From positions 1 through 47,168 of the forward strand of contig CALXDL010000051.1 of assembly GCA_944387055.1 (NCBI GenBank): DNA of 47,168 nt, given 5' to 3'. Shown here piece after piece: positions 37,951-46,056 of this stretch; position 1 is the first letter of the stretch, and each line of letters starts with the position of its first letter. Below the pieces are notes generated by a model, which saw only the letters and a program-made list of their open reading frames with translations, was not told where the DNA came from and searched no databases. The stretch is from an uncultured Oscillospiraceae bacterium. Lineage in GTDB: Bacteria > Bacillota > Clostridia > Oscillospirales > Oscillospiraceae. Both the position numbers and the translations under genes were made by a program.

Positions 37951-38041
37951 AAGTGTGGCACAGATGAGGGCTTGTTTTCCCTATGAGTCAGATCCGCGGC
38001 CATCAAACAGAGCAATGGGACCATTTCCTTGGGTAGAGTTT

Positions 38042-38232
38042 AGCTCTGAACGGGACTCTCCTTATTTGCGCCGCGCCATCTGGCTGGCATCTACAGTCGC
38101 CGTCCAGTACGATCCAATGTTCCGCGCTTACTGTGAAAAGAAAATGTCCGAAGGGACGCATCACATGGATATGATCGGTCATGTCAGCAGGAGAATGACT
38201 GCTGTGATTTTCACTGTTCTCCGGGATGGCGA
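38042..38232 (+). pseudogene. IS110-family transposase C-terminal remnant
   Basis: A stretch of about 63 residues matches the end of IS110-type transposases: DSPYLRRAIWLASTVAVQ (the S-P-Y-L-R-R-A-x-W hallmark), DPMFRAYCEKKMSEGTHH and GHVSRRMTAVIFTVLRD. The catalytic N-terminal DEDD domain is absent and the preceding sequence is unrelated, so this is a fragment. The larger open frame 37859-38365 that contains it is not a real gene. Confidence 0.75.
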
Positions 38233-38486
38233 CCGTGCCGACCTGTGCTGCAGAATGCCGGATGACCCGACCACACATTTCAGATGGACTCCCCAGAGGT
38301 CTGGGCCACTGCGTCCTTTTTTCAGATATACTCTTATCCACGTGAAATACAAATGTATCCCTTGACAAGACCATAGCCGACTGCTTCTTCTTTCGTCCTC
38401 TGCAAATCCCCGAAACGTGGTCCGACCTTGCCTCGAACGGGGAGCCAGGTGCTGGCTGCCTCTCCTGAAAGAGGGCGCGCAGCGGC

Positions 38487-38819
38487 TCACACGGCCAAAC
38501 AGGGGCTGTCCTCTTTGTCAACGCCATCGCAGTTCCATCCGCATGCAGAATGGTTTTCTCTGCCTTTGATAAGGACTCTGGCCCGAGCGTAATTCTCCGC
38601 ATTCCATAAGCTGGCTCCCGTTCTATTTTCATCCGCTACCTGATACATGGAAACTGTTGTGTCGGCAATTCGGTTGCTCTTACAGCTCTCGTAGACGTAT
38701 TCGGATGGATATCCCAGCTCCGGCACTGTAACGTCCGGCAGGTACTCCTGCAGGTCCCGCACATTAGCAAATGTTGACTTGTAGTCCTCAAAATGTACCA
38801 ACATGACATGAATAGCAGA
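38487..38819 (-). pseudogene. C-terminal fragment of an aspartate-semialdehyde-dehydrogenase-like protein
   Basis: About 110 residues resemble the end of the ASADH dimerisation domain: VMLVHFEDYKSTFANVRDLQ, ELGYPSEYVYESC, and MYQVADENRTGASLWNAE, compared with the family's VADN-x4-GAALNA. A TAG at 38820-38822 blocks the frame on the 5' side, and the next gene begins there, so the N-terminal two thirds are missing. The match was made by eye. It could be the scar of an insertion at this border. Confidence 0.45.
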
Positions 38820-38825
38820 CTAAAA

Positions 38826-39602
38826 TTAGCTCTTGTAATCTTTTTTATAGCCTAGCAACTCTGAAATTTGTTCCGCAGTGTATTTAACAGCCCTAATCAG
38901 TTCCTCTCTACGTACATCCACACGACTAGAGGGGCCGCTAACACTAATAGCGGCAACTACATTGTTATTCATGTCATAAATTGGAGCGGCAATACAACTC
39001 AAATCACAAAGAACCTCTCCAATATCCAGCGCATAACCAACACGCCGAACTTCCTGCAAAGCGGTACGCAATTCCTCAGGGGTACGGATCGTATTCGGTG
39101 TAGGAGGTTCCAACGTGCCCATATGTTTACAATATTCTTCAATAAATGTTGGCTCCTGAGCGGCCAGCAAAACTTTTCCGACGCCGGTAGCGTGGGCAGG
39201 AGCTAGCGTATTAAACTTAGTACCGTAGGTCAGGGATTGTGTTGGCTCCACGCGATCCAAGTCGAAAATATTAAAGCGGTTCAACATGCACAGGTTGACA
39301 GTCTCGCCAAGTGACCGTGCTAGAGATTCAAGCAGAGGATGCGCAATACGGCGTAAATCGTATTGCCGAATGACTGCGCTTGAAAGTGATAGTAGTCGCG
39401 GGCCCACCTGATATCTCTTAGTTCTAGTGTCCTGTACTAATACTCCCATTTCTTCCAACGTGGTTATTTGGCGGAACACTGTACTTTTAGGCAGACCTAA
39501 ATGTTCAGAGAGAGAACGTACAGACCAATTCATTTCTTGGTCGATGAAGCATTCTAAAATTTCAAAAGTCTTTACGATACTGGAGATACTCTCTTTTGGC
39601 AT
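38826..39602 (-). CDS. IclR-family transcriptional regulator
   Basis: This 258-residue regulator has an N-terminal winged helix (SVRSLSEHLGLPKSTVFRQITTLEEMG) and a C-terminal effector domain. The effector part shows the IclR pattern HATGVGKVLLAAQ, then GYALDIGEVLCDLSCIAAPI. AGGAGGAATTATTT precedes the ATG. It is divergent from a TRAP transporter and sugar-acid-type catabolic genes, so it most likely controls them in response to the imported acid. The 230-base intergenic region carries repeated CGGGACA motifs. Its AT-rich composition matches the catabolic genes and not the high-GC background. Confidence 0.93.
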   Translation of the reverse strand: MPKESISSIVKTFEILECFIDQEMNWSVRSLSEHLGLPKSTVFRQITTLEEMGVLVQDTRTKRYQVGPRLLSLSSAVIRQYDLRRIAHPLLESLARSLGETVNLCMLNRFNIFDLDRVEPTQSLTYGTKFNTLAPAHATGVGKVLLAAQEPTFIEEYCKHMGTLEPPTPNTIRTPEELRTALQEVRRVGYALDIGEVLCDLSCIAAPIYDMNNNVVAAISVSGPSSRVDVRREELIRAVKYTAEQISELLGYKKDYKS

Positions 39603-39652
39603 AAATAATTCCTCCTAAAATTTTTTAAAAATAAAATAAAAAGACTTGACAA

Positions 39653-39658
39653 ATTATA
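39653..39658 (-). promoter_or_regulatory. Possible -10 box of the iclR-type gene
   Basis: On the minus strand TATAAT lies 51-56 bases before the ATG. No matching -35 at 16-18 bases is clear. On the plus strand TTGACA at 39646-39651 lacks a good -10 at the right distance. Confidence 0.35.
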
Positions 39659-39693
39659 CAAACTGTGTCATTGTCATATTAGAACCCATATTT

Positions 39694-39762
39694 CGGGACA
39701 ACGTCCCGTTATTCGGGACAACAAACAAGACCGTGTCCACCTATACGGGACATTAATAATGT
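39694..39762 (+). promoter_or_regulatory. Candidate IclR-type operator array
   Basis: CGGGACA occurs three times (39694, 39714 and 39746). The first copy forms a palindrome, CGGGACAACGTCCCG (39694-39708). The third runs into another palindrome, ACATTAATAATGT (39750-39762). The cluster lies between the divergent regulator and the dctP-like gene, as expected for operators. Confidence 0.55.
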
Positions 39763-39831
39763 ACCACGTTTCATACAAAAGTCAAGCTAGCAAAAATGCT
39801 CATAAAGAGCAGGAAAGAGGAGGAATACAAT

Positions 39832-40878
39832 ATGAAAGCGATACAGAAATCTTGGATCCTTATCTTCGCACTTTTTATGTTCGTTTGTATCCTAGTTGGT
39901 TGCAGTAGCGACACAAATTCAAAAACGGTTGAAGAAAAAATAGATGGTGCGCAAGAGCCTGTTATTATGAAGTTTGCGACAGAAAGTACTGATGCAGACA
40001 CGCTCTCCCAAGCATTTCGATATTGGGCCGAACTAGTTGAAGAAAAGACAGATGAAGTCGAATTCGAGTTCCATTACAATGGTTCTGTTGGGACCAACAC
40101 TGAACTAATGGATGCCATGCTGATGGGCGAAGATTACATCATTGTTGCCGATCCTAGCTATTTTAAAGATTGGGTACCTGAATGGGACATTTCTTGTGGG
40201 CCTTATTTTTTAGAAGAAGAATCCGATTATTTGTTACTGACTCAGACCGAATGGTGGTTCGATCAGGTACAGCAGTTAGAAGATGCTGGTTTCATATTGA
40301 TGGGCGGCGACTTCTTATACAGCTATCGACAAATTCTCGCCGATAGAGAGATCCGAAATCCAGATGATTTGTCTGGCGTCAAGATGCGTGTACCAACCAC
40401 AGATTTGTCCATTGCTATGGCGGAATGCATGGGTGCTGTCGCTACCCCATTGCCTTTTTCTGAGATGTTTACTGCTCTTTCTTCTAAGACAATTAATGCC
40501 GTAGAAAACCCCATTTCTACGTTGTATAATGCGAAACTCCATGATGCTGCAAAGTATCTAAACCTAACGAATCACCAGGAAATGCTTATTACTTATATCT
40601 GTGGCGCCCAAACTTGGGAAAAGTTGTCCGAGGAATGCCAGAATATTATTTTAGAGTGCGGTAAGGAAGCTGCCGACTATTATAACAATACCTTGCTGAA
40701 ATCCGCTGAGGAAGAGTGTTTGGAGGCCATGATTGAGGAGGGCCTGATTATTGTAGATGATGTAGATATAGACGCATTTAAAGCTTCCTGTGAGACCATT
40801 TATGACGGTAAAACGATTCCTGAGTGGCCCGCTGGACTCCGTGATGAAATCGTGGCCCAAGTGGAAGCACTAAAGTAA
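39832..40878 (+). CDS. dctP: TRAP transporter substrate-binding lipoprotein (DctP type)
   Basis: This 348-residue receptor captures an organic acid for TRAP import. The signal peptide ends in the lipobox LVGC, followed by SSDTN. The fold signatures are MKFATESTDADTLSQ and, most useful, the conserved Arg in the segment DLSGVKMRVP that binds the substrate carboxylate. The next parts, AVATPLPFSEMFTALSSKTINAVENP, fit the family. AGAGGAGG precedes the ATG at 39832. It starts the island operon dctP-dctQ-dctM-uxaA-type-RraA-like. The protein is unusually acidic (many Glu/Asp). The substrate is unknown. Confidence 0.93.
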   Translation: MKAIQKSWILIFALFMFVCILVGCSSDTNSKTVEEKIDGAQEPVIMKFATESTDADTLSQAFRYWAELVEEKTDEVEFEFHYNGSVGTNTELMDAMLMGEDYIIVADPSYFKDWVPEWDISCGPYFLEEESDYLLLTQTEWWFDQVQQLEDAGFILMGGDFLYSYRQILADREIRNPDDLSGVKMRVPTTDLSIAMAECMGAVATPLPFSEMFTALSSKTINAVENPISTLYNAKLHDAAKYLNLTNHQEMLITYICGAQTWEKLSEECQNIILECGKEAADYYNNTLLKSAEEECLEAMIEEGLIIVDDVDIDAFKASCETIYDGKTIPEWPAGLRDEIVAQVEALK

Positions 40879-40957
40879 TTTTCTGGGTTTATAGGTTGGT
40901 TATGAGTAAAATGAAAAATTTTTTGCGCGATTTTGATTCACTGAAGGAGGGATTTTT

Positions 40958-41494
40958 TTGAGTAATGTATCTCAAAAAGTTTGGAAAATTATTTTTAATT
41001 TTCCGGAATATGTCTGCTGGATCGCCTTAGTAGCATTGATTATTCTAAATTTTTCTGGCGTTATTTTTCGGTATTTCTTTAACAGCCCTTTTAAGTTTGG
41101 TGAAGAAACCACCAAATTTCTGTTTGTGTGGCTAGTAATGTTGGGAACCGCGTATGCCGCAAAACGAGATAAACACGTATGCTTTGATTTGTTGGCGAAT
41201 CGGCTGTCTCCAAGTGGTCAAAAAGTTTTGAACATTGCGATTATTTTAGTGCAAATCGTTTTGTATGTAGTCCTAATTTATATTTCAATTCTCTTGTGCA
41301 GCATTACTACCCAACGTACTCCTGTTTTTAAGTTAAACTACCGCTACATCTATTCCAGCGTAGCCGTGTCTGGGGTCTACTTTATTTGGTATATGCTGCT
41401 ACGCTTGAAGCGTGTATTTAAAGGGCAACCACAGGATTTGGACATAATCCCCAACCAGAGTGCATCAAGGGCAGAGAAGGAGTCTTTTGAATGA
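40958..41494 (+). CDS. dctQ: TRAP transporter small permease (DctQ type)
   Basis: This 178-residue protein has four membrane segments (near residues 16-38, 52-68, 90-112 and 130-148), typical of the small TRAP subunit. The conserved EETTKFLFVWLVMLGTAYAAKRDKHVCFDL, in particular the E-x5-F-x-W and the H near RDKH, matches family features. The start codon is a TTG at 40958, because GAAGGAGG is nine bases upstream and no ATG is near. It overlaps the next gene by four bases (ATGA), showing coupling to dctM. Confidence 0.92.
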   Translation: MSNVSQKVWKIIFNFPEYVCWIALVALIILNFSGVIFRYFFNSPFKFGEETTKFLFVWLVMLGTAYAAKRDKHVCFDLLANRLSPSGQKVLNIAIILVQIVLYVVLIYISILLCSITTQRTPVFKLNYRYIYSSVAVSGVYFIWYMLLRLKRVFKGQPQDLDIIPNQSASRAEKESFE

Positions 41495-42777
41495 ATATTG
41501 TAGCAATTTGCTTTATCATGATGCTTTTACTTTTCATGCTAAAGCTACCCATTTATATTGCGATGTTGATTCCCTCTGTATTTTATTTCATCGCAGAAGA
41601 CATCAACATCGCAATCATGGTTCAACGCATGGTTTCCGGCCTAGAATCTACTTCGATCGTCGCAATTCCATTTTTTATGCTCTCTGGTGCCTTAATGAAC
41701 TATACCGGCATCACAAAGCGTATGATTGCTTTTGCAGAGGTAGTTACCGGTCATATGCGCGGCGGCCTAGCGCAGGTCAACGTGTTGTTGAGTACCTTGA
41801 TGGGAGGTCTGTCCGGTTCTAACATTGCGGACTGCGCAATGGAGGCTAAAATTTTGGTTCCCGATATGCTGAGACAAGGTTACAGCAATGGCTTTTCCAC
41901 AGCAGTTACCGCATTTTCCTCGCTGATCACACCTCTTATCCCTCCCGGATTGTGCCTGATTACCTACTCTGTTGTTGCTAATGTTTCTGTTGGTAGGATG
42001 TTCGCTGCGGGTCTACCGATTGGTTTGCTGACCTGTGCCATGGAAATGCTATTCGTTGATCAAATATCTAAGAAAAGAGGATACAAGCCCATTCGTGAGA
42101 AAAAGGCCAGCGGAAAAGAAATCTTGACTGCCTCTAAGACAGCCATCTTCGCACTGATTTTGCCTGTTGTTCTAATAGGCGGGATTCGTGTCGGTATTTT
42201 TACTGCTACCGAAGCTGGCGTTGTGGCAGTCGTATATGCACTGCTGATCGGTGTGGTAGTATACCATGAGTTAAAGTTTACCCATTTTAAAATTGCTCTG
42301 AGCGAAACAGTAGAAACCACTGCAATGGTCATGGCTATTTTTGCTGCGGCCAACTGCTTTACTTACTTTGTCAGTAACGAGGGTGTTGCTGAGATGGTCT
42401 CTACACAGCTCTTTGCCTGGATTACCGAACCTTGGCAGTTTTTCTTGATTCTAAATATTGTTCTGTTGATCGCTGGCATGTTCATGGAAGGTGGTGCACT
42501 GACAATTCTATTGGTCCCGCTGTGCATGGGGGTCGTCGACCGACTGGGCATTGACTTGATTCAATTTGGCTGTGTATTCTGCTTGAATGTTTCAATTGGA
42601 ACGCTGACTCCCCCTGTTGGCACGGTCCTGTATACTACCTGCCAAGTTACAGGTTGCCGAATTGAGGAGTTTTTCAAAGAAGGATGGTCGTTCTACGTAG
42701 CTATGTTGATTTTGCTGGTCCTAGTCTCTGTGTTTCCTGGCATCTCTACTTTTATACCTAATTTGATTTATGGCTGA
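41491..42777 (+). CDS. dctM: TRAP transporter large permease (DctM type)
   Basis: This 428-residue subunit carries out sodium-coupled transport with DctQ and DctP. It contains about twelve membrane segments, and the family sequence VAIPFFMLSGALMNYTGITKRM, later LMGGLSGSNIADCAMEAKILVPDM, and ITPLIPPGLCLITYS. Near the C-terminus is TLTPPVGTVLYTTCQV, the second P-P-x-G-like motif. The start overlaps dctQ. This is a complete TRAP transporter of the DctPQM type in which Q and M are separate genes. Confidence 0.95.
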   Translation: MNIVAICFIMMLLLFMLKLPIYIAMLIPSVFYFIAEDINIAIMVQRMVSGLESTSIVAIPFFMLSGALMNYTGITKRMIAFAEVVTGHMRGGLAQVNVLLSTLMGGLSGSNIADCAMEAKILVPDMLRQGYSNGFSTAVTAFSSLITPLIPPGLCLITYSVVANVSVGRMFAAGLPIGLLTCAMEMLFVDQISKKRGYKPIREKKASGKEILTASKTAIFALILPVVLIGGIRVGIFTATEAGVVAVVYALLIGVVVYHELKFTHFKIALSETVETTAMVMAIFAAANCFTYFVSNEGVAEMVSTQLFAWITEPWQFFLILNIVLLIAGMFMEGGALTILLVPLCMGVVDRLGIDLIQFGCVFCLNVSIGTLTPPVGTVLYTTCQVTGCRIEEFFKEGWSFYVAMLILLVLVSVFPGISTFIPNLIYG

Positions 42778-42792
42778 TCGTGGTGATATAAA

Positions 42793-43140
42793 ATGGATAC
42801 TGTGAATATGCAAGCTGCATATGTTGTCGCCAAGGAAGATAATGTCGCCACAGCACTCGGAGAACTCGTGCCTGGCATAGTAATACTTAGAGGAGCAAGA
42901 AATGACACCGTTTCAGTAGTTGAGCGAATTCCATTTGGGCACAAGTTCGCTTTATGCGAAATTCCTGATAAATCACCGATTATTAAGTATTGCTATCCTA
43001 TAGCCGTTGCTACGCAAATAATCCATACTGGTGAATATATTCATATTCACAACGCAAAAAGTTATTTAGATATTCGTTCCAATAACTATAAGAGTGATGT
43101 GAAACGAGTGAAGGAACGGGAGAGTGGCCATGAGACCTGA
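42793..43140 (+). CDS. UxaA-type dehydratase small subunit (SAF domain)
   Basis: This 115-residue protein is the SAF domain found at the N-terminus of altronate and galactarate dehydratases or as a separate small subunit. It has AKEDNVATALGELVPG, then a beta strand (IVILRG), then IPFGHKFALCEI and YCYPIAVATQIIHTGEYIHIHNA, the recognised core. The same split is known in sulfolactate sulfo-lyase SuyAB. GTGGTGAT precedes the ATG. It overlaps the large subunit gene by 11 bases. Confidence 0.88.
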   Translation: MDTVNMQAAYVVAKEDNVATALGELVPGIVILRGARNDTVSVVERIPFGHKFALCEIPDKSPIIKYCYPIAVATQIIHTGEYIHIHNAKSYLDIRSNNYKSDVKRVKERESGHET

Positions 43141-44344
43141 TTTTTCGATTTGCCATGGATATCTGCGCCAAGACGGGCGAAAGGGCATCCGTAATAAATT
43201 GTTGGTAATTTATACTGTAGACTGTGCAGCATTTGTGGCAGAGGAAATTGCTCGTTTTTTCAAAGTACGGGACCTAGACGTGGACTGGTTGGGTAATCGC
43301 TCATGCTTTGATAATACAGTTATGCAGCGGCGGATACTCAGTTATATTGCGCATCCCAACGTAGGTGCCGTCCTAGTGGTTGGTCATGGTTGTGAGTATA
43401 TGCAAGCAGATGCACTTTGCAACTTTGCTATTACACAAGGTAAACCGGCTGATTATCTGTTACAACAAACCTCTGGTGGTACAGCTAAATCCATTACAAC
43501 TGGTATTTCCAAAGCCTGGACCTTACTTCACAAGTTACAGGCAATGGAACCTATACCATTTTATTGGAAAGATTTAACCGTAGGTAGTCAGTGTGGAGGT
43601 TCAGATTTTACCTCTGGCCTGATTGGAAACCACATCGTAGGTAACTTTTTTGACTATTTGATTGAGGCTGGGGGGAGTTGTGTGTTCCAGGAAATTGCCG
43701 AATCGATTGGTCTTCGAGATTATATGGTCAATAGAGGCGCTACCGAGCAGGCTAAACACGATATCGGTGCTGCCTATGACAAGAGTGAATCCATCTGCAA
43801 ATCTTGTGGGCAGTATTCAATTTCTCCGGGCAACTTTGACGGAGGCTTAACCACTATTGAGGAAAAAAGTATGGGCGCCACTATTAAAAGCGGCTCAAAA
43901 CCCATCCAGGGTGTTTTAAAAATTGGCCAACAGGTTCCTGGACCGGGTCTATGGCAACTAGATTCGATGCAGGACTTGAATTATTCCATTGGTTTTACTA
44001 ATGTGAGCGATGCCTCCGATTTGATGGATACAATATCTACGGGCACGCTTCTGAATCTTCTTGTAACAGGGCGGGGCCACGTCCAGGGGACCCCTATCGC
44101 TCCAACGATCAAGATTACCGGGAACCCCAAAACTTATGAGGCACTACCGGATGATATCGATGTTAACGGTGGAAAGCTTTTATTAGGGGTATGCACCCAA
44201 GAAGAAATAGAAAAGGAATTGCTGGAGTTGGTACAAGCAGTATGTGCTGGAAAAAAGACAAAGGCAGAGCTATTGGGGCATCAGGAATGCGAAATGACTT
44301 TTAATTATCAGATAACTGCCAAAACCGCATGTTATTCTTTGTAA
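43130..44344 (+). CDS. UxaA-type dehydratase large subunit
   Basis: This 404-residue protein is related to the C-terminal catalytic part of altronate dehydratase UxaA, galactarate dehydratase GarD and SuyB. It starts with GYLRQDGRKGIRNKLLVIYTVDCAA, has VGHGCEYMQAD, the characteristic YWKDLTVGSQCGGSDFTSG, and ends with a GRGHVQGTPIAPTIKITGNP segment. Cysteines that may bind Fe2+ or an iron-sulfur cluster are present (CGGSD, SICKSCG). GGAACGGGAGAG lies before the ATG at 43130. With the SAF subunit it should dehydrate an aldaric or related hydroxy acid; sulfolactate is an alternative. Confidence 0.9.
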   Translation: MRPDFSICHGYLRQDGRKGIRNKLLVIYTVDCAAFVAEEIARFFKVRDLDVDWLGNRSCFDNTVMQRRILSYIAHPNVGAVLVVGHGCEYMQADALCNFAITQGKPADYLLQQTSGGTAKSITTGISKAWTLLHKLQAMEPIPFYWKDLTVGSQCGGSDFTSGLIGNHIVGNFFDYLIEAGGSCVFQEIAESIGLRDYMVNRGATEQAKHDIGAAYDKSESICKSCGQYSISPGNFDGGLTTIEEKSMGATIKSGSKPIQGVLKIGQQVPGPGLWQLDSMQDLNYSIGFTNVSDASDLMDTISTGTLLNLLVTGRGHVQGTPIAPTIKITGNPKTYEALPDDIDVNGGKLLLGVCTQEEIEKELLELVQAVCAGKKTKAELLGHQECEMTFNYQITAKTACYSL

Positions 44345-44395
44345 ACACTACATCATTTTGAAAACCCAAAATACTTCTATTAAGGAGGATCAGCT

Positions 44396-45043
44396 ATGAG
44401 TTTGAACTATAACCAGATTCAGAAAGACCTTTTTTCTGCTGTACTGTGCGATATTCTGGATGAGCTAGGCTATCGTTATCAGGCTATGGATGCTGCAATT
44501 CGTCCCCTATCCGAAAGCGATGTTGTTTGTGGTCCTGCATTTACTATCCAAGGTGTAAGTGTAGCTTCCCCCAGTAAAAAGCCTTTCGAGGTTGAATTTG
44601 AGGCCATCGATAATATCGTAAAGGGCAGTGTTCTGGTTATCGATGCCAATGATGCTGTCTGCGGCTTTTGGGGTGAACTGCTGACTGCAACTAGTCACCA
44701 CCACGGTGCAGTTGGCTGCGTTCTGGACGGTCTGACCCGAGACCGCAAAAAAATTCTAGAGACTGGTTTTCCTGTTTTTGCCAAGGGCTACAATCCGCTG
44801 GACTGTTTGGGGCGTGGCGAGATGATCGACTATCAGCGTAAGATCAAATGTTGTGGCGTTGAAGTTAATCCTGGGGACATGATTTTCGGCGATGTTGACG
44901 GCGTTGTGGTCGTTCCTGCAGCTGTGGCGGAGGAGTGCGTTGCCCGCGCTTACAAGAAAATCGAGGATGAAAAGATGGTTAAAAAAGAATTTCTTTCTGG
45001 CCGTTCTGCTTCCGAGGTCTGGAATCAGTACCATATTCTGTAG
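44396..45043 (+). CDS. RraA/HMG-aldolase-like protein
   Basis: This 215-residue protein belongs to the RraA-like family, whose members include 4-hydroxy-4-methyl-2-oxoglutarate aldolases and oxaloacetate decarboxylases. The characteristic block is WGELLTATSHHHGAVGCVLDG followed by TRD (G-E-x-x-x-x-A-x-x-x-G-x-x-G-x-V-x-D-G-x-x-R-D), and the C-terminal GDVDGVVVVP. AAGGAGGATCAGCT precedes the ATG. It closes the island operon. With the upstream dehydratase it most likely cleaves the 2-oxo-4-hydroxy acid formed, giving pyruvate plus another product; its true role is inferred. Confidence 0.9.
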   Translation: MSLNYNQIQKDLFSAVLCDILDELGYRYQAMDAAIRPLSESDVVCGPAFTIQGVSVASPSKKPFEVEFEAIDNIVKGSVLVIDANDAVCGFWGELLTATSHHHGAVGCVLDGLTRDRKKILETGFPVFAKGYNPLDCLGRGEMIDYQRKIKCCGVEVNPGDMIFGDVDGVVVVPAAVAEECVARAYKKIEDEKMVKKEFLSGRSASEVWNQYHIL

Positions 45044-45669
45044 TCTTTTTGGGCTATTATGTAGATAATTCCTATTTCAGTATCTTTTCCTGGGACAAAA
45101 TGACTCTTGGATGTCCCTGCCCTGCTGATGGGTAAGGTTTTCAAAAGCGTTGGACCTACTTTAAAAACTTGCAATTCTGATTCTCTATTGTATTGTGAAG
45201 ACGGACTAGCTACAGTGGATACAAACTTCTATTCACAGCTACATTGCCTGTTCTTGTGGCACACTTAACGTTGTACATCTCCCGCAGAGGAAAGTTTTCC
45301 TTTGAAGAAGCCATTTTCGGTCATAGAAATCGCCAGTAGTAATCTGCTTTATGGCCCCTCGCTTTCATTTCTCTCCCTGCCCCAGAGTTCTGCCCCATAT
45401 TTGTCAAGATCCTTGTGGAGCGGAGAGGGAAATCTCCGGTTTTTGGGGTTCTTAGGCCACAAAAGACCTGGAAAGTGTTGCAGTGTAGCGGATAGAGAAA
45501 CCGGCCGCGGCGCATGGCCCGGAGGTCATTGACTCACGTCTAGGCCTCTGTGACCACTGCCTAACTTTGCAGAAATTAGACAGCTTTTATTTGCTCCTTG
45601 TCGAAGAGTCCGTCCCCAATTTGAGGCGTTTTCAGCCGACTCAGATTTTGGACCATATGGGGGAAATGA

Positions 45670-45713
45670 GGCCGGGACGCGGCGTTTCCGCGTCCCGGCC
45701 TTCTCCTATTTTG
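45670..45713 (+). terminator. Strong hairpin with T-rich tail
   Basis: The arms 45670-45682 and 45688-45700 (GGCCGGGACGCGG arm) are perfect complements with a CGTTT loop, followed by TTCTCCTATTTT. It would terminate plus-strand transcription, possibly of the catabolic island operon or of an unseen RNA. Confidence 0.6.
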
Positions 45714-45727
45714 TGGCGTCAAAGGGC

Positions 45728-45820
45728 CTACACCGGAACGTTTCCCATAGTTTTCGCCGCCTTGTCAGCGACACGCCATACTACGACACCTGCGCGATAG
45801 CCATGGAGTAACGGCTTCAT
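45728..45820 (-). CDS. Possible 30-residue small protein
   Basis: A short minus-strand frame starts MKPLLHGYRAGVVVWRVADK and ends in MGNVPV. Its amino acid mix looks protein-like, with a hydrophobic centre and basic residues, and an AGGGG lies four bases upstream. There is no other support. It could equally be part of a structured RNA or a repeat. Confidence 0.25.
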   Translation of the reverse strand: MKPLLHGYRAGVVVWRVADKAAKTMGNVPV

Positions 45821-46056
45821 TGCCCCTGTTTCGTGTCCGGGACGACGCCTTTTCAAAATCCCGCAACTGCCCGCCGTGTGGGCAGTTGCGACCGCATTTC
45901 GGCCCACAGGCCGTTCAAAGCAGGTGTGGGCGCGTGCCTGTAAAAAGTGTTTGGCTGGCAGTGGAAAGTGGGACGCTCTGCTTGCTATGCTGAAGCGGCA
46001 GGACGTTTCTTTAGAAAGTCCACTTCATGTCCCATAAAATTTCTTTTCATTCCCCC

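Follow-up and report, generated by a model that had tools for sequence, protein, structure and literature searches.

An AT-rich island at positions 38826-45043 of a 47,168-nucleotide contig from an uncultured Oscillospiraceae bacterium (GCA_944387055.1, contig CALXDL010000051.1; the whole contig is referred to here as the window) appears to encode a short catabolic route. In this route, an imported aldonic acid of the L-fuconate/L-galactonate type would be dehydrated and then cleaved to pyruvate and an aldehyde under the control of an IclR-family regulator, a reading to which we give a somewhat better than even chance. The tripartite ATP-independent periplasmic (TRAP) transporter DctPQM would take up the acid. 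The SAF and large subunits of a split and probably iron-dependent dehydratase would then strip water from C2-C3, yielding a 2-keto-3-deoxy acid, and an RraA-type protein, acting as a divalent-metal (class II) pyruvate aldolase, may cleave this intermediate to pyruvate and an aldehyde, L-lactaldehyde if the substrate is L-fuconate and L-glyceraldehyde if it is L-galactonate. Since the acid itself is proposed to be imported, the route would do without oxidation, lactonase, isomerase and kinase steps. The logic of import, dehydration and carbon-carbon cleavage had already been put forward in the initial annotation of this DNA and stands as the best reading, with the RraA neighbourhood recurring in other genomes. 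The seven-gene set is probably a new variant of a known pathway type, the families being known and the combination of enzymes unusual.

The window is one entire contig (C51) out of the 106 that make up the draft genome, which totals 2.12 Mb, is 85% complete and was probably assembled from a metagenome. ORF calling places seven open frames in an operon-like layout (iclR; dctP, dctQ, dctM, saf, uxaL and rraA) at the gene coordinates of the initial annotation, and together they fill the island (Table 1). The island was also described there as AT-rich, in agreement with a GC content of 0.432 compared with 0.576-0.659 across the 167 other 6218-base stretches of the contig (200-base steps, with 38401-46000 excluded) and with a GC content at third codon positions of 0.34-0.48 among the seven genes. 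By composition the island is foreign to its contig, of which the first kilobase (1-1000) is likewise AT-rich (GC 0.418). The enzyme families are well supported by profile comparison, Pfam and NCBIfam recovering IclR, DctP, DctQ, DctM, the second and C-terminal domains of GD_AH, and RraA-like. The absence of a kinase and a reductase from the seven genes was likewise borne out by the ORF list and by Pfam/NCBIfam; an isomerase is also absent from them, the rest of the genome not having been searched for isomerases or reductases.

The large dehydratase subunit exceeds the Pfam cut-offs of PF20629 (220.8 bits) and PF04295 (94.3 bits), and its residues Cys34, Cys61, Cys90 and Cys157 are all shared with Escherichia coli UxaA and GarD and with LgnE. 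In 121 aligned sequences these cysteines are conserved in 121/121, 120/121, 120/121 and 119/121 rows, respectively. The small subunit matches the SAF model weakly (E 0.0017, 19.3 bits, Pfam cut-off 21), and a saf match lies upstream of uxaL in 73 of 80 related loci. The cut-off of the GarD equivalog model TIGR03248 is not reached (135.6 bits against 730.85); since a split subunit is hardly able to reach the cut-off of a fused model, the tree weighs more. UxaA-family matches were found in 25 of 60 genomes (own included), with a best identity outside the window of 40%, and in 391 genomes of the class six have a match at E 1e-60 (own included), the best two others being 48-49% identical. A single-sequence scan of genome contigs gave no confirmed relative. 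The loci of relatives analysed below are the best 80 of at least 589 from a profile scan of named genomes. Placement of uxaL agrees between a FastTree tree of 121 sequences and a maximum-likelihood tree of 65 (63 chosen from the 121, plus two references). It groups with the two copies of genome G143, with L049 and L051 (both Blautia) and with L053 (Pelethocola) in a subclade of six rows (support 100/100), which lies within a 34-row group (100/98); this group is sister to a 15-row FucC-side group, and the joint 49-row clade is supported at 100/100. The window protein lies in the half that is sister to the FucC-type group and is not a member of that group. Outside the 49 rows fall E. coli UxaA and GarD, a SuyB-like protein (L211, recognised by its neighbours) and Paracoccus denitrificans LgnE (recognised by its operon and from PMC6336799 and PMC12632266); the SuyB-like and GarD rows are long-branched in the maximum-likelihood tree. 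The phylogeny recommended in the initial annotation thus sets the large subunit apart from UxaA, GarD and a SuyB-like protein, and tree and model scores exclude the identities UxaA and GarD.

The nearest dehydratase group with a context-based assignment is of the split L-fuconate-dehydratase type, with FAH, short-chain dehydrogenase/reductase (SDR), mutarotase or FucP neighbours; heteromeric L-fuconate dehydratase was itself assigned from gene context (PMC6336799). The island resembles it in its split SAF and large subunits and in its sister position in the trees, and three plasmid members of the FucC half are 38-41% identical to uxaL. Many FucC-type clusters, however, carry mutarotase, SDR and FAH hydrolase genes, whereas the island carries an RraA protein and a TRAP transporter. 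A D-arabinonate dehydratase of the UxaA/GarD superfamily also acts, at lower rates, on D-altronate, L-fuconate and L-galactonate (PMC6336799). These four acids share their C2-C4 geometry, and hence the exact substrate is not readable from sequence. In G143, a genome listed with 8% contamination, two large-subunit genes of the subclade stand in tandem (L044:8683-9915 and L044:10074-11318) and each lacks different cysteines: S and D replace C61 and C90 in the first, and S replaces C157 in the second (CGGSD reads SGAMD). The pair may form a heteromer in which each copy makes up for the losses of the other, or decay may have affected both.

Gene neighbourhoods were searched by tblastn (E 1e-10, query coverage of 45% or more) up to a distance of 8.5 kb from uxaL in the 80 loci, which FastTree divides into the half containing the window (clade B, 45 loci) and the FucC half (35 loci). 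RraA matches occur in 34/45 clade-B loci, within 3 kb of uxaL in 31/45 and with a gap below 0.8 kb in 28/45; the FucC half has 10/35, eight of them within 3 kb. None of 29 other UxaA-family loci used as a control (L004-L032, flanks of at most 1.5 kb, mostly from one genus and so not independent) has an RraA match. The pairing of uxaL with RraA, which the initial annotation had proposed to look for, thus recurs, in loci spanning Bacillota, Spirochaetota, Synergistota, Planctomycetota, Verrucomicrobiota, Actinomycetota and Pseudomonadota. A literature search, in which few subscription papers were covered, gave no description of RraA beside a UxaA-type enzyme among the matches listed. The earlier argument that an RraA partner suggests a different substrate is weakened, the RraA partner not being singular to the window. 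Other neighbours in clade B are a UxaC-like glucuronate isomerase (18/45, two of them below 30% identity), DctP (17/45; 15 nearer the L063 type and two nearer the L079 type), zinc-dependent alcohol dehydrogenase (Zn-ADH, 5/45), dihydrodipicolinate synthase-family proteins (DHDPS, 3/45) and FAH (0/45). The corresponding counts in the FucC half are UxaC 0/35, DctP 4/35, Zn-ADH 7/35, DHDPS 0/35 and FAH 13/35. SDR genes are common in related clusters.

The rraA-saf-uxaL-SDR operons with UxaC (L056, L057, L063 and others) share with the island RraA, SAF and the large subunit, often together with a TRAP transporter. They differ in that rraA usually lies upstream of saf, in their UxaC, SDR and enolase-type genes, in another DctP type and in RraA proteins that are only 29-39% identical to that of the window. 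What distinguishes the window is rather that its island has neither uronate-isomerase nor SDR genes, carries another TRAP type and places rraA after uxaL. In L049, L051 and L053, the three closest named relatives listed, a DHDPS-family gene directly follows uxaL and no RraA was detected (the L053 contig begins 134 bases before the uxaL match, so that its upstream side is unseen); RraA and DHDPS occur together in none of the 45 clade-B loci. That a DHDPS gene takes the place of rraA in the closest named relatives supports an aldol step. Two further arrangements were seen. In L099, L109, L112 and L113, RraA genes of yet another branch lie at most 1.2 kb from FucC-side dehydratases. The rraA-saf-uxaL operon of genome G162 (L043:11-8513) adjoins a family 11 rhamnogalacturonan lyase and a GH35 gene, neighbours hinting at a pectin source.

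All three components of the transporter exceed their Pfam cut-offs (PF03480, PF04290 and PF06808). The first ATG of dctP (39796) is probably too early and the true start 39832, where a lipoprotein-like start preceded by a purine-rich site was read by eye. The solved structures nearest to DctP by phmmer are 4ovt (E 1.6e-45) and then 4o8m (1.1e-42), and the same two head a Foldseek search with an AlphaFold2 model (20 sequences; pLDDT 89.0, pTM 0.80). We take their ligands to be L-fuconate and L-galactonate. The same structures also rank first for the DctP of L079, and 4x8r and 4n8y, presumably uronate receptors, rank first for that of L063, which belongs to a UxaC cluster. The window DctP scores 171 bits against the L079 protein and 77 against the L063 protein, which places its transporter with the type of clusters without UxaC. 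Its nearest relatives by bit score among 40 other collected DctP ORFs, a collection biased in that about half entered through uxaL, are L148, L103, L079, L096, L149, L093 and L085; five of these seven come from uxaL clusters, and the cluster that holds L149 comprises tagaturonate reductase, fused UxaA, 2-keto-3-deoxygluconate (KDG) kinase, 2-keto-3-deoxy-6-phosphogluconate (KDPG) aldolase and Zn-ADH. A Chromohalobacter TRAP system has dual specificity for L-fuconate and L-galactonate (PMC5507952, citing Vetting 2015). The gene set of L181 (tagaturonate reductase, a fused UxaA-type enzyme, a KDG-kinase-like protein, KDPG aldolase and a zinc-dependent dehydrogenase) resembles the L-galactonate route with a TRAP system in the same source (PMC5507952), an E. 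coli-type route, and its DctP (29% identity), DctM (47%) and IclR gene recall the island; where L181 has the fused enzyme, kinase and KDPG aldolase, the island has a split dehydratase of another clade and RraA. The UxaC-like isomerases of clade B and the frequency of SDR genes could mean that the island supplies only the last steps of a longer route for hexuronates or aldonates, with isomerase and reductase encoded elsewhere in the genome and a uronate or a different aldonate as the imported compound. We consider this unlikely, since the DctP of the window differs from the L063-like DctP found in each of the 14 clade-B loci in which UxaC and DctP occur together, and the island itself holds neither enzyme.

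Many members of the widespread RraA-like family still lack an assigned function. The window protein belongs to this family (PF03737, 119.3 bits) and stays below the NCBIfam equivalog cut-offs (TIGR02798, 78.8 versus 304.5 bits; NF006731, 83.5 versus 179 bits). Its residues Arg115-Asp116 align with the Arg-Asp motif of 4-hydroxy-4-methyl-2-oxoglutarate/4-carboxy-4-hydroxy-2-oxoadipate (HMG/CHA) aldolase (PDB 3noj), in which Arg123 is required for catalysis and Asp124 binds the metal; most homologues carry such a motif and hence are likely to be class II pyruvate aldolases (PMC5065237). The island RraA shares with this aldolase the fold family and the metal/enolate motif, but is distant from it (phmmer E 2.1e-12) and the known enzyme has its role in aromatic degradation. 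The best-scoring RraA relatives in 291 genomes of the class are 35-39% identical, with weaker and shorter matches reaching 42%. In the RraA tree the window protein lies outside 44 operon RraAs (94/80), and the order of its gene differs from that in the operons. Independent recruitment is not claimed, as a tree joining the window with the operon RraAs was not rejected (p-AU 0.397). Three tandem RraA-like genes elsewhere in the source genome (G000:C77, L189:7338-9270) belong to another branch than the island protein.

With the same import and dehydration, RraA might instead act as a decarboxylase or dehydratase/decarboxylase. Routes of this kind would lead, for example, from tartrate through oxaloacetate to pyruvate plus CO2, or from an aldarate through 2-keto-3-deoxy-aldarate to alpha-ketoglutaric semialdehyde (alpha-KGSA). 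HMG/CHA aldolase decarboxylates oxaloacetate too (PMC5065237), the RraA-family enzyme FlDet converts 2-keto-3-deoxy-glucarate to alpha-KGSA (PMC8563752), and tartrate would need two steps alone. Set against this are the grouping of the dehydratase with the sugar-acid type and not with GarD, the proximity of DctP to 4ovt and 4o8m, and the DHDPS-family gene that occupies the position of rraA in the three closest named loci. The last of these agrees with an aldol step, with the qualification that some DHDPS-family enzymes are dehydratases as well. On balance a decarboxylating RraA is a little less probable even than a longer route. The preferred reading itself has several points to its disadvantage. 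To our knowledge, the six-row uxaL subclade holds no characterised enzyme; uxaL, on a long branch (0.89), is at most 51% identical to any relative found (best segment, among the best 80 loci), and the identity of DctP to 4o8m (27%) and 4ovt (30%) is too low for fixing a ligand. Eleven of the 45 clade-B loci have no RraA match, three of which end at contig edges (L053 upstream; L070 and L075 downstream), and neither an RraA nor a DHDPS match was found in the 19.9 kb of the G143 locus, both copies of which belong to the subclade. The island holds no gene for the aldehyde product, and FlDet is a dehydratase/decarboxylase and not an aldolase (PMC8563752).

The regulator gene iclR encodes 258 amino acids and matched 11 NCBIfam models, all under their cut-off. 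From their position, the direct repeats between iclR and dctP are a possible IclR operator, and IclR perhaps controls the island through them.

Table 1. Features of the island and its flanks in window coordinates.
Feature	Position	Strand	Evidence
Left-flank stretch matching a same-genus repeat	38465..38508		93% over 44 bases; G456:C24:34502-34545
iclR, IclR-family regulator, 258 aa	38826..39602	-	PF01614 E 3.7e-44, PF09339 E 1.4e-13
Three 18-nt direct repeats, core CGGGACA, between iclR and dctP	39683..39752		Repeat search
dctP, TRAP solute-binding protein	39796..40878	+	PF03480 E 2.7e-54
dctQ, TRAP small permease	40958..41494	+	PF04290 E 5.5e-26
dctM, TRAP large permease	41491..42777	+	PF06808 E 3.7e-107; TIGR00786 above cut-off
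saf, small subunit of split UxaA/GarD-type dehydratase	42793..43140	+	GarD model N-terminus E 2.5e-6
uxaL, large catalytic subunit, 406 aa	43124..44344	+	PF20629 E 2.2e-65, PF04295 E 8.6e-27
rraA, RraA/HMG-aldolase-like, 215 aa, proposed class II aldolase	44396..45043	+	PF03737 E 2.2e-34
Right-flank stretches matching same-genus repeats	45377..46003		Sequence matches

Judged by its composition, the island was likely acquired by horizontal transfer. The initial annotation had based the same origin on composition and on transposase fragments on one side. The first of these grounds stands, but no transposase was recognised in two left-flank ORFs, and a mobile-element vehicle is suggested only indirectly, by composition together with the flank repeats. 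Neither of the two ORFs (38003-38632 and 38487-38804) has a Pfam or NCBIfam match at E 0.001, and the second has none even at E up to 1, the scan of the window for transposases being confined to this pair. In genomes of the same genus, repeats matching short stretches of the flanks adjoin phage-integrase ORFs and the ORF of an IS110 transposase; with the own genome included, any match was found in 8/61 genomes for the right flank and in 7/61 for the left. In G456 the left match (38465-38508) and a right match (45898-46003), both short, lie 20 bases apart beside the IS110 ORF, as if the island had been placed inside a copy of this repeat. There is no clean empty site, since about 0.73 Mb separates the flank genes in G448 and the two flanks fall on different contigs in G456. 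Insertion at a tRNA gene was considered and set aside, there being no tRNA in the window; to the eye, the repeats of relatives with a match to the right flank resemble tRNAs, but ARAGORN detects none there. The same-genus regions L205-L208 (G456:C24, G448:C1:2130000-2169800) contain phage-integrase ORFs, repeats and, by eye, transporter and catabolic-looking operons, and are possibly an island hotspot. A chimeric join of a contig from another organism into the draft genome would account for the sharp GC change and for flanks that are not neighbours on the single G448 contig; it is nevertheless improbable, because both flanks match same-genus repeats, two of these matches are nearly adjacent in G456 and GC passes through intermediate kilobases on either side of the island (0.501 and 0.507). 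Least probable by far is a sulfolactate sulfo-lyase (SuyAB) operon, which would likewise have split subunits and, as beside the SuyAB-like genes of L211, an IclR regulator: tree and cysteines exclude this identity, L211 being long-branched outside the 49-row clade and reading I, R, P and C at the four cysteine columns (one of four kept, SuyB also being described as without the conserved cysteines in PMC6336799), and no sulfite exporter or sulfolactate dehydrogenase is present among the island genes.

Taken beyond the window, these observations tentatively suggest, at rather less than an even chance, a widespread non-phosphorylating hexuronate/aldonate route in which a split UxaA-type dehydratase works with a class II aldolase of the RraA type. 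The window would represent its minimal transferable form, in which RraA replaces the class I DHDPS-type aldolase of its closest relatives and the change of TRAP transporter spares the isomerase and reductase steps. If true, some bacteria would convert uronates and aldonates to pyruvate without a kinase, and a class II aldolase would do the work of KdgA or GarL. The recurrent operon of RraA with a sugar-acid dehydratase allows a direct test of the role of one RraA branch, and the aldolase swap within one dehydratase clade makes the prediction testable with few purified enzymes.

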